Source of the DNA: an uncultured Pseudomonadota bacterium
Lineage (GTDB): Bacteria; Pseudomonadota; Alphaproteobacteria; RF32; CAG-239
Direction: 5' to 3'
NCBI GenBank assembly: GCA_902785935.1
Contig: CADAAN010000001.1
Location: 1 to 57,056 of the forward strand
DNA length: 57,056 bases
Shown here: piece after piece, positions 7,119 through 56,269 of the stretch
How the letters are laid out: each line of letters begins with the position of its first letter
Numbering within the stretch: the first letter of the stretch is position 1
The notes under the pieces: generated by a model
Database searches by the model: none
What the model was told of the DNA's origin: nothing
What the model saw: only the letters and a program-made list of their open reading frames with translations
Program-made: the position numbers and the translations under genes

Positions 7119-7895
7119 TTACCGATACCTTATCGAGAAGGTATTTGTCTTGCCCGCCACGGCATTCGCCTCATCGATGGTGTAAATGCGCTTTTTGATG
7201 TAATTCGGCGTGCCGATATCACTGAGCCGAGCATAGTATTTGCCGCCTACAAGATATTGATTGTCAGATGTTTGTTGATATTCAATAACTTCTGCCGCGT
7301 CGCCGCGATAAGCGATGGCGGCTTCACAAGCATCCTTCATTTGAGGAGCGCAATAAAGTTTTTCAATCAATGTCGGAGTACTATTATTAGCTTTGAAAGC
7401 TGTCGGACTCAATGTAGTATTTGCGGGAATAACAAGTGTTGTGATACCTGTTGTTTCGAGCGCTTCTGTATCAATAGTAACATTATCCGGTATTGTTAAA
7501 TTTTCAAGAGAGGTACAATTTTCTAATCCGCCTGGGAGTATCTCTCTTAAAGATTGCGGTAATTCAATATTTTTCAAATTTTCAAATCTAAAAAATGCAT
7601 TATAACCAATGCTTGTAATGCCTTCCTCGATACTAATGTTTTGGATGTTATTTCTAACAGCATACCAAGGTTCGCTCGTCGTGTACCAGCCTCCCATCGG
7701 GCCCTGACCGGAAAGTGTCATTGTACCGACCGATTTGATTGAGCCGTCGGGCTGAACTTCATCTTCATAAGTCACGTGTGCGAGGCAATTTTCGCCGCAC
7801 TGAAAACAATCAGTGTCGTTAAGTGTTTCAAGTGTACAATCCGCTTTTGCATTGAAACTCAGAATTAATCCCAAAATCAAAACATATTTCTTCAT
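7119..7895 (-). CDS. Secreted LRR (BspA-like) protein 1 with conserved C-terminal tail
   Basis: A 258-residue protein with a signal peptide (MKKYVLILGLILSFNAKA, cleavage before DCTLE). A cysteine-rich N-terminus (CFQCGENC) is followed by short leucine-rich repeats of the LRR_5/BspA type (ITSIGYNAFFRFENLKNIEL, then LRE, LENLTIP, ITTLVIP units). A linker (EKLYCAPQMKDACEAAIAYRGD) leads to the tail KKRIYTIDEANAVAGK then NTFSIRYR. The tail recurs in LRR genes at 30327, 33742 and 41030 and in the remnant at 55825. BspA-like LRR proteins often mediate surface adhesion; no ligand can be predicted here. A class 1 leader RNA ends just upstream. Confidence 0.82.
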   Translation of the reverse strand: MKKYVLILGLILSFNAKADCTLETLNDTDCFQCGENCLAHVTYEDEVQPDGSIKSVGTMTLSGQGPMGGWYTTSEPWYAVRNNIQNISIEEGITSIGYNAFFRFENLKNIELPQSLREILPGGLENCTSLENLTIPDNVTIDTEALETTGITTLVIPANTTLSPTAFKANNSTPTLIEKLYCAPQMKDACEAAIAYRGDAAEVIEYQQTSDNQYLVGGKYYARLSDIGTPNYIKKRIYTIDEANAVAGKTNTFSIRYR

Positions 7896-7926: not shown

Positions 7927-8082
7927 AAAAAAATCACTTCAGAAAAAATCCAAAGTGGGAGCTATACGAACTGTGTAGATGCAGTTTCTCTTCTTCGTCA
8001 CAAAGTGCTTATTCCGAGAACTCCCTTTAAAAGGAGTCTTTATCTACAAAGTGTCGTATAACACCGCAACCATTTTGGTTAC
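7927..8082 (-). ncRNA. Class 1 structured leader RNA, copy a (upstream of LRR protein 1)
   Basis: Read on the minus strand, the RNA starts with the conserved hairpin AACCAAAATGGTT and GCGGTGTT. Two long-range helices follow: P1 (TATACGA 8060-8054 with TCGTATA 7969-7963) and P2 (TGTAGAT 8048-8042 with ATCTACA 7980-7974). An internal hairpin ACTCC/GGAGT lies at about 8035-8019. The RNA ends in an intrinsic terminator (CACTTT/GAAGTG stem, U-run 7933-7927) 31 bp before the ATG. P1 and P2 keep pairing in the three other copies despite different bases. The family is not one I recognise. It is either a cis-acting attenuator/riboswitch or a separate small RNA. Confidence 0.8.
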
Positions 8083-8088
8083 ATTCTT

Positions 8089-8117
8089 ATAATGGCATAC
8101 ATCACAATTCTTGTCAA
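8089..8117 (-). promoter_or_regulatory. Promoter of class 1 leader RNA copy a
   Basis: The minus strand carries TTGACA (8117-8112), a 17-bp spacer ending in TGC, and CATTAT (8094-8089). The conserved RNA 5' end GTAACC begins 6 bp after the -10 box. The same geometry occurs at all four class 1 copies. Confidence 0.75.
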
Positions 8118-8300
8118 CAAATATTTTGCAATAAAAGATGGTGTTTTATGTAAAACATCCCCAAACAACGTAATCAACCGGATTACTAACAGCCTAAATT
8201 AAGTTAAAATAAAGGCACAAGTACCTGGAAAATTAAAACTTGAATAATGAGGTAAATGCGACGGAACTTTTTTGCGCAGTGTACAAATATCATTTAAAAG

Positions 8301-30326: not shown

Positions 30327-31172
30327 TCAGCGGTATCTTATCTTGACCGAATTAACCTTTCCCGCCACCTGATTTGCATCATCGATAGTGTAAATGCGCT
30401 TTTTGATATAATTTTGTGTACCGATTTTACCGAGACTGTCATAAAATTTGCCACCATAAAGATACTCGTTTCCAAGACGTCTGTACATTTTTAAGTCCAC
30501 ATCTTCAAGAGGTACATAGCCACCGTCAACCCCCGTAAAAGAGTCGGCGTCTTTTAAGTAATCAGCGCATTTTTTCTGATATTTTTCTGAGCAATATATT
30601 TCATTGATATGTGTTAATGCGCTATGAGCCATCCCTAAACCACCCTCATCAAACAAAGAGTCCGGAAGTATAAGACTTGTCACACCGGATGCTCCGAAAT
30701 TATAATGTCCGAGGTATTTAAGCGAATCCGGCAACTCGATATGCGTCAATAAAGGGTCACCATAAAAAACGGCTACATTTATCCTTTCAAGCTGTGAATT
30801 TTCTTCAAAATTAACTGATGTTAAGTTTCTCATTGACTGAAAAGCTCCATCGCCGATAGATAGAACCGAATTGCCTATTTTAGCAGACGTTAACTGCGCT
30901 TGATGAAAAGCAAGTGTTCCGATAGATGTAATACCCGATATTTCAACCGTAGAAATATCTGTTCCCCATGGTGAAGGATTGTCATAATAAGTATGTGTAT
31001 AATCAGCCATTTTTCCAGTACCCCAAATCTTGAGATTTCCCTCATCATCAAGGCTCCAGTTACAATCATCATAAGTTTGTGTATTTTCATTATATGCACC
31101 GCAATTACCCGATGTTTCGGCATTGACGTTAAAACTTAAAACTAACCCTAAAATCAAAATTATTTTTTTCAT
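30327..31172 (-). CDS. Secreted LRR (BspA-like) protein 2 with conserved C-terminal tail
   Basis: A 281-residue protein with a signal peptide (MKKIILILGLVLSFNVNA). LRR units occur at about residues 75-190 (ISGITSIGTLAFHQAQLTSA, NSVLSIGDGAFQSM, LTHIELPDSLKYLG, VTSLILPDSL). A linker containing CSEKYQKKCADYLKD and YLYGGKFYDSLGKIG precedes the tail KKRIYTIDDANQVAGK then NSVKIRYR. The YLYGGKFYDSLG segment matches YLVGGKYYARLS in LRR protein 1. A class 1 leader RNA ends about 95 bp upstream. Host-surface binding is a family-level guess. Confidence 0.82.
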   Translation of the reverse strand: MKKIILILGLVLSFNVNAETSGNCGAYNENTQTYDDCNWSLDDEGNLKIWGTGKMADYTHTYYDNPSPWGTDISTVEISGITSIGTLAFHQAQLTSAKIGNSVLSIGDGAFQSMRNLTSVNFEENSQLERINVAVFYGDPLLTHIELPDSLKYLGHYNFGASGVTSLILPDSLFDEGGLGMAHSALTHINEIYCSEKYQKKCADYLKDADSFTGVDGGYVPLEDVDLKMYRRLGNEYLYGGKFYDSLGKIGTQNYIKKRIYTIDDANQVAGKVNSVKIRYR

Positions 31173-31266: not shown

Positions 31267-31423
31267 AAAAAAAATCACTTCAGAAAATTCCAAAGTGGGA
31301 GCTAGATGAACTGTCAAAACGCAGTTTCTTTTATTCGTCACAAATGTGCTTATCTCAAGAACTCCCTTTTAAAGGAGTTTATGTTTTGAAAGTGTCATCT
31401 AACACCGCAACCATTTTGGTTAC
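31267..31423 (-). ncRNA. Class 1 structured leader RNA, copy b (upstream of LRR protein 2)
   Basis: Minus strand, starting GTAACCAAAATGGTT. P1 pairs TAGATGA (31401-31395) with TCATCTA (31309-31303); P2 pairs TCAAAAC (31389-31383) with GTTTTGA (31320-31314). Both differ from copy a yet stay paired. The internal hairpin is ACTCCT/GGGAGT. The terminator ends in the U-run 31274-31267. Unlike the other copies, about 95 bp separate the terminator from the gene start. Promoter: TTGACT 31458-31453, 17-bp spacer, AAAAAT 31435-31430. Confidence 0.8.
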
Positions 31424-34604: not shown

Positions 34605-34858
34605 AAAAAGTCGCACCTTTGATGGAGCGACGGGGTGTAAAACAACCATATAGTATGAAATGATCCCAATAATCTTTAGGAGAACCTTGTACATTCATTA
34701 TCGGCACCCCGACTTTTTTCGGGGATAATGGTGTTTTTAAAAACAAAAAAAACACTATAAAATTACAGTGTTACCATCACTGCATACTATAATAAGCTGT
34801 TTTAGAGCCCCGCACCCTATCAGGGTACTGAACAGAAAAGCCCAAACTTCTCTATCTG
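34605..34858 (-). ncRNA. Class 2 structured leader RNA, copy b (upstream of LRR protein 3)
   Basis: Minus strand. The long-range helix pairs TATAGTATG (34791-34783) with CATACTATA (34657-34649). The second helix pairs CCGATAAT (34704-34697) with ATTATTGG (34673-34666; one G-U). The CCCCGA/TCGGGG hairpin is conserved. 5' hairpins include ACCCT-GAT-AGGGT. The terminator has stem GTCGC/GCGAC (34631-34610) with U-run 34609-34605, 26 bp before the ATG. Promoter: TTGACA 34893-34888, 17-bp spacer, AATCAT 34870-34865. Bases before the terminator (CCCCG) are complementary to CGGGG at 34812-34808. Confidence 0.78.
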
Positions 34859-34986
34859 ATTTTCATGATTACATACCTCAAATCAAATGTCAAGTAAAAA
34901 AATCCCCGCGAAGTATATGATATTTTTCTTATAATATAGACGCCATAAAATCAAATAACGCATTGATTTTTCATATAAAAACGCAG

Positions 34987-40998: not shown

Positions 40999-41031
40999 GA
41001 ACCACGCCCTTTATGCGTGGTTCTTTTTTTT
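40999..41031 (+). terminator. Intrinsic terminator of the 40401 gene
   Basis: Perfect 9-bp stem GAACCACGC (40999-41007) with GCGTGGTTC (41015-41023), followed by T8. It abuts the stop of the convergent LRR gene. Confidence 0.88.
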
Positions 41032-42043
41032 ATCGATACCGAATCGAGAAAGTATTGGTTTTACCTGCGACCTGATTGGCCTCATCGATGGTGTAAATGC
41101 GGAATTTGACATTGTTGCCTAAAGCAAAATCTTCCATCGAATTATAAATCTTTGAACCGACTTTGAAAGGCGCACCGTTTGAGGCCAATATATCTTCACA
41201 GTTTTGTTTGTCCGTGCATGCCGCACCACTTGCAAACAAATCAAGCGTTGCCCAATATTTTCCGCCGACTTCAAAGGGCTTGCCCTGCGAGGCGGCATCC
41301 AAAATATCTTGGCAGTTTTGCGCATTATCACAAGCGGCGCCTTTGGTCATCAAATCTGCCGTTGCATAAAGTTTATCCCCGATTTGATAAAATCCGTCGT
41401 CGCTTTTTTGATACGCTATCACAGAAACATTATCTCCGCGATAAGCAACCACTGCCGCACAAGCATCTTTCTGTTCAGAAAGACAATAAATTTTTTCAAT
41501 CGGCGTACTGCCATAATACGGACTGTCAAAAATATCCTCTCCTGAAAGTAATTTTGCATTCTTGGGGATAACAATGCTTGTTAAGCCGGTTCCCTGCAAT
41601 GATGCACGATGGATATTAACACCATCCGGAAGTGATAGCGATTTTAATTGAGGACAAGATTGAAAAGCCCCCGGTTCTAAATTAAGCAATGTTGACGGGA
41701 GTTCAACTTCAGATAAGTTCATAAAATGATAAAAACCATTAAACCCGACAGAGGTTATTCCTTCATCAACCACGACTTTTGTAACTTCTGAAGATTTGAC
41801 ATACCAAGGTGTGGGTGTGTCGCCATCATAATTAAAATTTCCCATATTACCTTCACCCGAAACGGTTAGAATTTTTTCGGTCGTATTATTATTTTTTATC
41901 GATTCGCTATATCTCATAACACAACTTGCACCACATTCAAAACAAGTCTTTGCTTGCATTTCCGAATCACTGCAAGGTACATATGTTGATGCATATATTT
42001 TAAAACTGAGCATAAAACTCACAATAAAGGCCCTTTGTTTCAT
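41030..42043 (-). CDS. Secreted LRR (BspA-like) protein 4 with a duplicated C-terminal module and conserved tail
   Basis: A 337-residue protein with a signal peptide (MKQRAFIVSFMLSFKIYAS). CFECGASC resembles CFQCGENC of LRR protein 1. LRR units follow (ITSVGFNGFYHFMNLSEVEL, LTSIVIP). The linker CLSEQKDACAAVVAYRGDN matches protein 1. Two copies of a module of about 36 residues occur at about 225-298 (LYATADLMTKGAACDNAQNC; YWATLDLFASGAACTDKQNC). The tail FRIYTIDEANQVAGK then NTFSIRYR closes the protein. A class 1 leader RNA ends 26 bp upstream. Confidence 0.82.
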   Translation of the reverse strand: MKQRAFIVSFMLSFKIYASTYVPCSDSEMQAKTCFECGASCVMRYSESIKNNNTTEKILTVSGEGNMGNFNYDGDTPTPWYVKSSEVTKVVVDEGITSVGFNGFYHFMNLSEVELPSTLLNLEPGAFQSCPQLKSLSLPDGVNIHRASLQGTGLTSIVIPKNAKLLSGEDIFDSPYYGSTPIEKIYCLSEQKDACAAVVAYRGDNVSVIAYQKSDDGFYQIGDKLYATADLMTKGAACDNAQNCQDILDAASQGKPFEVGGKYWATLDLFASGAACTDKQNCEDILASNGAPFKVGSKIYNSMEDFALGNNVKFRIYTIDEANQVAGKTNTFSIRYR

Positions 42044-42068: not shown

Positions 42069-42225
42069 AAAAAAATCACTTCAGAAAAATTCCAAAGTGG
42101 AGGAGCTACTAAACTGTCAACACACAGTTTCTCTCATTCGTGCAAAAGCCTTATATCGAGAACTCCTACCAAAGAGGAGTTATGTGTTGAATGTGTTTAG
42201 TAAACACCGCAACCATTTTGGTTAC
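42069..42225 (-). ncRNA. Class 1 structured leader RNA, copy c (upstream of LRR protein 4)
   Basis: Minus strand, starting GTAACCAAAATGGTT. P1 pairs TACTAAA (42202-42196) with TTTAGTA (42113-42107). P2 pairs TCAACACA (42190-42183) with TGTGTTGA (42124-42117). The internal hairpin is ACTCCT/AGGAGT, and AGGAGTT (42167-42161) can pair with AGCTCCT (42107-42101) ahead of the terminator. The terminator stem CACTTT/GAAGTG ends in U-run 42075-42069. Promoter: TTGACA 42261-42256, 17-bp spacer, CATGAT 42238-42233. Confidence 0.8.
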
Positions 42226-47944: not shown

Positions 47945-48106
47945 GTAACCAAAATGGTTGCGGTGTTTAGATGACATCTTCTTGAAGCATAGCTCCTTTA
48001 AAGAGGAGTTGTTGAGATAAGGGTATTTTGCCGCGAATAAAACAAACTGTGCTTCAACAGTTCATCTAGCTCCTCCGTTTTAGGTTATTTAAGACGGATT
48101 TTTTTT
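47945..48106 (+). ncRNA. Class 1 structured leader RNA, copy d (upstream of prepilin-like gene)
   Basis: Plus-strand copy starting GTAACCAAAATGGTTGCGG. P1 pairs TAGATGA (47968-47974) with TCATCTA (48062-48068); P2 pairs TTGAAGCA (47982-47989) with TGCTTCAA (48050-48057). The internal hairpin is CTCCT/AGGAG. The terminator has a different stem from the other copies (TCCGTTTTA 48074-48082 with TAAGACGGA 48090-48098) but the same position, then T8 (48099-48106). The gene starts 20 bp later. This copy shows the leader is not confined to LRR genes. Confidence 0.82.
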
Positions 48107-48126: not shown

Positions 48127-48741
48127 ATGAAAAATAATGAAACAGGCAGAAGTATGGTCGAGATGCTGGGCGTGTTGGCCATTGTCGGGGTATTATCGGC
48201 GGGCGCGTTAAAAGGTTATTCATCCGCGATGTTTAAATACAAAATGAATCAAACGATTGACATCACAACAAGGATGTTTCAACGCATTGAGGAACTGTCT
48301 CAAAAAGATTTGGGGAGCGAAGCGATTATCCAAGCAAGCAATGCCGTTGAATGGGGGCTTTTGGAAAAATGCGATTTAGAAGATGGATACAAATGCCGCC
48401 TGCCGATAGGAAGTGTTAGCGTAGATTTTTATGATATACCTGCTGATTATTGTTTTGATGGCAGTCCTGCAGGACTCGGAGGCCAGTTAGAATTTGAATT
48501 CACGGATGCAAAAAGTTGCACAGCCTTTTTATCGGCGCATTGGGAGCAAATGTTGCCTCAGGATTGGTGGAATCCGAATGGGTTTTTATTGGTTGAAGGA
48601 GAAAAAGAAGAAACCCATCTTTATTATCCGGGAGAAGATATAACGGAGATGCCGACAATGTCTGATTTTACAAATGCCTGCCAAAAAATATGTATAAACG
48701 GAAAGTGCTGGATTTTCTTACGATATCGTAACTGGTGTTAA
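48127..48741 (+). CDS. Prepilin-like protein (type IV pilin N-terminal methylation motif)
   Basis: A 204-residue protein. The start MKNNETGRSMVEMLGVLAIV has a prepilin peptidase site (cleavage after Gly7, Glu at +5) and a hydrophobic helix to about residue 30. The rest is a cysteine-containing globular domain ending in a cysteine pair (CQKICINGKC) and LRYRNWC. It is probably a pseudopilin or minor pilin placed at the surface by type II/IV machinery; no assembly genes are nearby. It is preceded by a class 1 leader RNA and followed by its own terminator. Confidence 0.82.
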   Translation: MKNNETGRSMVEMLGVLAIVGVLSAGALKGYSSAMFKYKMNQTIDITTRMFQRIEELSQKDLGSEAIIQASNAVEWGLLEKCDLEDGYKCRLPIGSVSVDFYDIPADYCFDGSPAGLGGQLEFEFTDAKSCTAFLSAHWEQMLPQDWWNPNGFLLVEGEKEETHLYYPGEDITEMPTMSDFTNACQKICINGKCWIFLRYRNWC

Positions 48742-56042: not shown

Positions 56043-56269
56043 AAAAACCGCCTTTTAAAAAGCGGTCAGGGTGTTAGAAAATCATACAGAGTGAAATGAC
56101 TCCGATAGCCTTTAGAATAAATTTCCTGAACATTCGCCATCGGCACCCCGATCAAAACTTCGGGGATAAACGTTGTTTAAAACAAAAAACAACACCATAA
56201 AACAACAGTGTTATCCTTCACTGCACCCTGTAAGAGCTTTCTAAAGCCCTGCACTTCTTCTGAAATGCA
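56043..56269 (-). ncRNA. Class 2 structured leader RNA, copy c (upstream of collapsed LRR gene)
   Basis: Minus strand. A 5' hairpin (TGCATTTC/GAAGTGCA) is followed by the long-range helix TACAGGGTG (56232-56224) with CACTCTGTA (56093-56085; one G-U), the helix CCGATGGC (56143-56136) with GCTATCGG (56109-56102) and the CCCCGA/TCGGGG hairpin. The terminator is ACCGC/GCGGT (56066-56047) with U-run 56047-56043. Promoter: TTGACA 56304-56299, 17-bp spacer, TTATAA 56281-56276. CAGGG (56251-56247) is complementary to CCCTG just before the terminator (56071-56067). Confidence 0.78.

Follow-up and report, generated by a model that had tools for sequence, protein, structure and literature searches.

The closest described systems are the c4 control element of phages P1 and P7 (Rfam RF01695, C4, and RF03163, c4-a1b1) and the small RNA sRNA-Xcc1 (RF02221). 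In the record of phage P1, the annotated order of elements is a1, b1, c4, a2, b2 and then icd, and the c4 RNA itself folds into a closing stem, an inner stem and a hairpin with b' in its loop, followed by a single-stranded a' just before the closing strand; in RF03163, a 5' hairpin is followed by a second hairpin whose loop contains a1. Processing by RNase P to an RNA of ~77 nt is a further characteristic of c4. The phage P1 RNA stops translation by pairing with a2 and b2, where b' covers part of the ribosome-binding site and a' provides the specificity, and the C4-like Group 1 sRNAs of Acinetobacter baumannii provide an example of a c4-type RNA amplified in a bacterial chromosome (PMC5320573). 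At the related IsrK locus of Salmonella Gifsy-1 (RF01394), a short RNA ending at a terminator and an mRNA produced by read-through have been described, with two alternative folds proven by compensatory mutations (PMC4825925). sRNA-Xcc1 was detected by Northern blot as an 88-nt RNA with mapped ends (PMC2996969), and its position upstream of symE has already been noted (PMC12444791). Finally, a human microbiome study lists 3161 candidate RNAs, of which 100 lie near HTH-XRE genes, and an unnamed fragment of the leader family presented here may already be among them (PMC8040213).

The DNA analyzed here, called the window, is a stretch of 57,056 nucleotides from an uncultured alphaproteobacterium (contig CADAAN010000001.1), in which a sequence-only reading had reported four copies of a structured leader RNA. 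All four segments were located as claimed and are copies of one ~155-nt RNA, aligning over their full length and sharing the common 5' end GTAACCAAAATGGTTGCGGTGT. Each copy is preceded by a promoter, as the reading had it; the promoters are of the TTGACA/TATAAT type and end 6-9 nt upstream of the 5' end, where 6-7 had been claimed. Each copy ends in a terminator hairpin with a T run. The window copies fold far better than shuffled sequences (z of -4.3 to -6.8). The parts of copy 1, the outlines of the other three copies and the genes that follow them are listed here.

8083..8117, minus strand: promoter of copy 1, with TTGACA at 8112-8117 and the -10 element near 8089-8094
7927..8082, minus strand: leader RNA of copy 1, 5' end at 8082, terminator at 7927-7957
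8066..8082, minus strand: 5' hairpin P0 of copy 1 (GTAACC/GGTTGC); all 7 pairs change on both sides family-wide
8051..8065, minus strand: hairpin H1 of copy 1 (GGTGT/ACAC); the loop at 8055-8060 corresponds to a1 and has J2 as its partner
8042..8050, minus strand: J1 of copy 1, the b1 equivalent, whose partner is the H4 loop
8020..8038, minus strand: P3 hairpin of copy 1; its 3' arm B (GGGAG) has as partner either the 5' arm A or strand C (PX)
7986..8019, minus strand: P4, conserved internal loop (GANATAAG...CGAATAA) and P5 of copy 1
7969..7985, minus strand: hairpin H4 of copy 1 (CTG/CAG); the loop at 7974-7981 corresponds to b'
7957..7968, minus strand: J2 of copy 1 (a' equivalent, 7962-7968), then strand C (CTCCC)
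7927..7957, minus strand: intrinsic terminator of copy 1, its foot overlapping strand C
7119..7895, minus strand: gene after copy 1, secreted BspA-type LRR protein of 258 aa (PF13306, 2.8e-16)
31267..31423, minus strand: copy 2, with H1 loop 31396-31401, J1 from 31391, B 31361-31366 and, in the 3' half, H4 loop 31314-31321, J2 31302-31308, C 31297-31301 and terminator 31267-31297
30327..31172, minus strand: gene after copy 2, BspA-type LRR protein of 281 aa
42069..42225, minus strand: copy 3, with H1 loop 42197-42203, B 42162-42166 and, in the 3' half, H4 loop 42117-42124, J2 42106-42111, C 42102-42105 and terminator 42069-42101
41030..42043, minus strand: gene after copy 3, BspA-type LRR protein of 337 aa
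47945..48106, plus strand: copy 4, with H1 loop 47967-47973, J1 from 47978, B 48004-48009 and, in the 3' half, H4 loop 48050-48057, J2 48063-48069, C 48070-48073 and terminator 48074-48106
48127..48741, plus strand: gene after copy 4, pilin-like protein of 204 aa with N terminus GRSMVEMLGVLAIVGVLS, without a Pfam match

A repeated motif, AGTTAAAATAAAGGC..AGTACC, also occurs at window positions 8203 and 8323, between copy 1 and the next gene.

The two variable helices that the sequence-only reading had quoted, P1 and P2, are real, being both paired and covarying, although its inventory had overlooked the 5' hairpin, H1, H4 and PX. Among 83 distinct relatives, scored at 41 pairs in 8 helices, 96.0% of cells are paired, and the covariation score of 0.684 compares with 0.203 +/- 0.007 (sd) for column shuffles and with at most 0.108 when the partners are slid by 1-3 columns. 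Changes on both sides are found in P0, H1 (GGUGU/ACACC or GGAGU/GCUCC), P1, P2, P3, P4 and P5. H4, nearly invariant within the family as CUG/CAG, reads CUA/UAG, CCA/UGG or CCG/CGG in the alignments of remote members and is thus covarying, and the internal loop of P4/P5 is almost invariant, with the diversity of IL2 at 6% of saturation. Because helix P1 joins the H1 loop to J2 and helix P2 joins J1 to the H4 loop, both are cases of hairpin loops or linkers pairing with distant strands. These pairings are specific to the copy, as P1 reaches 7.35 with its own partner against 4.23 with the partner from a swapped copy, and P2 reaches 7.44 against 3.94. The covariation strongly supports the claim that this is a leader RNA of ~160 nt selected for its structure, as a predicted transcript.

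The four window copies represent a family about 16 times larger than the four that had been claimed. A BLASTN search with one copy as query found 41 copies in the host genome, and a covariance model built from 40 copies (R1) found 64 in its 1.46 Mb and 86 and 33 in two other species of the same genus, which is made up of MAGs of 1-1.5 Mb. To our knowledge, 64-86 copies per ~1.4 Mb would place this family among the densest bacterial cis-regulatory RNA families. Searching related genomes with such a model, as the reading had proposed, yielded many further members: 84/126 genomes and 14/16 genera of the taxonomic family and 101/153 genomes of the order. A broader model (R2) added about nine more alphaproteobacterial families. 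A sample of the phylum searched with R1 gave none outside the own genome. An exact 20-mer scan returned matches that include the rumen Alphaproteobacteria RGIG5118 and RUG11221; the spread to Oscillospiraceae and others that the same scan suggested was rejected, because only the 20-mer is shared and the model gives 12-25 bits. Neither a strict pattern run against phage collections nor a BLAST search of two remote copies against phages found any match, and a loose core pattern gave 69 candidate matches in IMG/VR viral contigs (L224-L292). We also observed four tandem leaders, ~245 nt apart, ahead of one small XRE gene (L170:1899-2774), and smaller tandem sets in L119, L135, L148 and L138.

The reading had further described the RNA as unrecognised and impossible to place in a known family. 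This is only half right. In an Rfam scan, which it had proposed for the four segments, no family reaches its cut-off in the window. Low-threshold Rfam scans of family members found nothing in the right place, and a match to RAGATH-21 was discarded, as it lies on the opposite strand and below the cut-off. The core is, however, homologous to sRNA-Xcc1 by way of intermediate members, and the whole anatomy matches the a1-b1-c4 region of phage P1.

In remote members, RF02221 matches the B-to-C core on the right strand with 45.6 (L218) and 45.4 bits (L217), corresponding to an E value of 2.4e-5 at ~45 bits; these best relatives do not reach its cut-off of 53 bits, and the window copies give no match. 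An LRR leader of intermediate type in the own genome also matches RF02221 (C8:20627-20714, E 4e-4; L198:240-430) and by eye has the same H1/J1/H4/J2 layout. What the leader and sRNA-Xcc1 share is the PX/P4/H4/J2 core, with a B/C closing stem, an inner stem with an AAUA loop and a b' hairpin in equal order, and the H1 loop and J1 are likewise present upstream at sRNA-Xcc1 loci. At the RF02221 loci L293-L322, the loop and linker partners lie ~100 nt upstream, so that the Rfam model looks truncated. In 25 of 25 RF02221 loci from other Proteobacteria, the H4/J2 region finds a complement of 7 or more within 130 nt upstream (mean 8.14 vs 7.00 swapped), and second a/b copies near the Shine-Dalgarno sequence, in the 75 nt downstream, give 7.90 vs 6.39 swapped. 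These second copies next to the Shine-Dalgarno sequence distinguish the sRNA-Xcc1 loci from the leader, as do a terminator-like hairpin between J1 and B in several loci, a gene set consisting of SymE, Bro-N, KilA-N, P22_AR_N and Rha, and the description of sRNA-Xcc1 as a trans-acting sRNA of ~88 nt. With partners upstream and second copies at the Shine-Dalgarno sequence, what Rfam models as sRNA-Xcc1 seems to be just the 3' half of a longer element acting in cis.

The resemblance to c4 of phages P1 and P7 extends over the whole order of parts, i.e., 5' hairpin, a1-loop hairpin, b1, closing strand, inner stem, b'-loop hairpin, a' and closing strand, along with a1:a' and b1:b' complementarity and a position upstream of the regulated gene. 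The leader thus shares the fold of the c4 core, with its closing and inner stems, b' hairpin and single-stranded a', and further upstream it has an a1, placed in the loop of a hairpin, and a b1 that are complementary to a' and b'. In contrast, the a2/b2 sites that define c4 repression were not found at the ribosome-binding site of the leader genes, where the H4 loop gives 4.81 own vs 4.89 swapped and J2 gives 5.59 vs 5.53. The leader also carries its terminator after C, whereas that of c4 lies between b1 and c4; it is compact, at ~155 nt in all; its conserved GANAUAAG/CGAAUAA internal loop is missing from phage P1; and it occurs in dozens of chromosomal copies on surface-protein genes. The covariance model of RF01695 has no match in the window, and R2 gives the phage P1 c4 RNA only 5 bits and does not recognise it. 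The A. baumannii Group 1 sRNAs share the chromosomal amplification and the variable a' loops, but they are reported as processed sRNAs and are not described as leaders of surface-protein genes (PMC5320573). IsrK is likewise a leader that contains an internal terminator, occurs as a short and a read-through isoform and adopts two folds, but it controls the translation of orf45/anrP and its short isoform lacks the a'/b' half (PMC4825925), whereas the terminated RNA of our class 1 leader has both halves.

As a result of the missing a2/b2 sites, the terminator at the end and the failure of R2 to score phage P1 c4, we do not file the leader as a member of RF01695 or RF02221. Based on the common architecture and the intermediate members, on which the link to c4 rests, it is probably a compact, chromosomal and hugely amplified relative of the phage c4 / sRNA-Xcc1 control elements, working like the c4 type and descended from it. 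Tables of PMC8040213 aside, the literature searched did not describe the compact form of the leader, the copy number and genes reported here, or the link between sRNA-Xcc1 and c4.

Strand B (GGAG...) is complementary to strand A just upstream, forming P3, and equally to strand C (CUCC...) just before the terminator, forming PX, and PX competes with P3 for this strand. Both can be formed at 5 bp or more in 122/132 copies. The first outer pair of PX covaries, being paired in 92% of the 132 copies with six pair types (GC 54, AU 44, UA 10, GU 7, CG 5 and UG 2). In a permissive search, run without a shuffle control, each of the 133 copies parsed has a terminator hairpin followed by a T run; PX reaches 1-5 nt into the foot of this terminator in 105 copies and lies clear of it in about 24. 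Since B pairs with either A or C and PX overlaps the foot, there are two exclusive arrangements, one with A-B and a complete terminator and one with B-C invading the terminator. Promoter hexamer matches average 9.2/12, compared with 7.1 for shuffled sequences, and the ORF starts 160-220 nt after the RNA start in 98 of the 117 copies having an ORF.

The pairings, their order, the competition of A, B and C and the terminator are shown here. We consider it fairly probable that every copy is complete in itself as a 5' control element of the c4 / sRNA-Xcc1 type, fused into one compact leader, and that it acts as a transcription attenuator by strand exchange; we infer the attenuator role, and which fold is ON, from the sequences. 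The shortness of the overlap between PX and the terminator foot, and its absence from about 24 copies, count against this reading. The promoter would start an RNA that runs through the 5' hairpin, H1 (a1 loop), J1 (b1), A, B, the P4/P5 stem, H4 (b' loop), J2 (a') and C to the intrinsic terminator, whose foot overlaps C. As long as A holds B, both C and the foot of the terminator would be free and transcription would stop at ~155 nt; with B paired to C, the foot would be invaded and RNA polymerase would read into the surface-protein or XRE gene. The balance may be set by whether a1 and b1 occupy a' and b', either in cis or from a second RNA transcribed at that locus, or alternatively by a factor reading the invariant internal loop. 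A different route, antitermination by pairing of 5' AACCAAAATGG with the terminator arm CCGTTTTAGG, is striking by eye in this genus, but in other genera the complementarity of P0 and terminator is, by eye, not kept, and it is therefore not a general mechanism.

If the invariant P4 internal loop were a ligand pocket and the terminator an expression platform, each copy would be a metabolite riboswitch, which would agree with the near invariance of that loop, the promoter-aptamer-terminator layout and the placement of one element ahead of many genes. We nevertheless think this unlikely, as the genes (LRR, pilin-like, XRE regulators, SymE and phage antirepressors) have no common metabolic theme, most of the conserved pairing is of the long-range a/b type, as in c4, and 64-86 copies per genome would be extreme. 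It is likewise improbable that the ~155-nt terminated RNA is itself the product, a trans-acting sRNA whose H4 loop and J2 act on other mRNAs: nearly every copy is directly followed by a gene in its own orientation, the loops fit the upstream partners within their own copy and complementarity around the start codon is not enriched, even though sRNA-Xcc1 was seen as a discrete RNA (PMC2996969) and some tandem copies have no intervening gene (L170, L119, L135 and L148).

In the own genome, 34 of 79 LRR_5 genes have the leader, and 34 of the 56 leaders listed stand ahead of LRR genes, with several others ahead of pilin-like proteins starting GRSMVEMLGVLA; among proteins sampled after own-genome leaders, 33/47 have LRR_5 matches. 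Other LRR genes follow an unrelated 'class 2' leader with its own promoter and terminator, seen in the window at 34730-34900 (minus strand) and 56172-56254. At least 11 of 20 checked upstream regions carry it, so that two types of leader divide the LRR genes between them. In remote families the leader precedes pilin-like genes again (L210, L214 and L216) and XRE genes (L217 and L223), and in other genera it lies mostly ahead of single genes for HTH/XRE proteins of 70-110 aa, which usually adjoin an oppositely oriented gene.

This prevalence of small XRE proteins among the leader-linked genes sampled in other genera, and a leader ahead of an XRE operon in the own genome (L178), would be expected of an autoregulatory leader whose core is bound by such a protein, controlling its own gene and, here, the surface genes. 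We regard such a leader as very unlikely: XRE proteins normally bind DNA, the core is nearly invariant despite several diverged XRE paralogues per genome, and leaders also precede genes unrelated to XRE.

Of the 51 copies from the own genome that were tested, every one matches itself at P1 as well as P2, each with a distinct combination of H4 loop and J2, and only 4 of 2550 cross pairs (0.16%) match at both segments. Private codes of this kind would keep the copies from regulating one another. Diversifying selection on the a/b codes was considered and set aside: the saturation seen in the codes is matched by that of the promoter spacer (ratio 0.94) and of the DNA after the T run (1.00), and since these neutral flanks are equally saturated, drift under pairing suffices for the code diversity. 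We tentatively propose, as a rather doubtful extension, that a domesticated phage immunity RNA may here serve as bar-coded control of the surface-protein repertoire, with ~64 private a/b codes and each terminated RNA switching only its own locus.

The comparison suggests that sRNA-Xcc1, although its annotation is that of a virulence sRNA acting in trans, forms the 3' half of a leader of the c4 type that controls SymE toxins and phage antirepressors. It also ties a phage immunity RNA to the surface proteins of uncultured Alphaproteobacteria of the rumen type. If the bar-code reading is true, surface genes could be expressed individually, in an independent or stochastic manner, while sharing a single RNA design.
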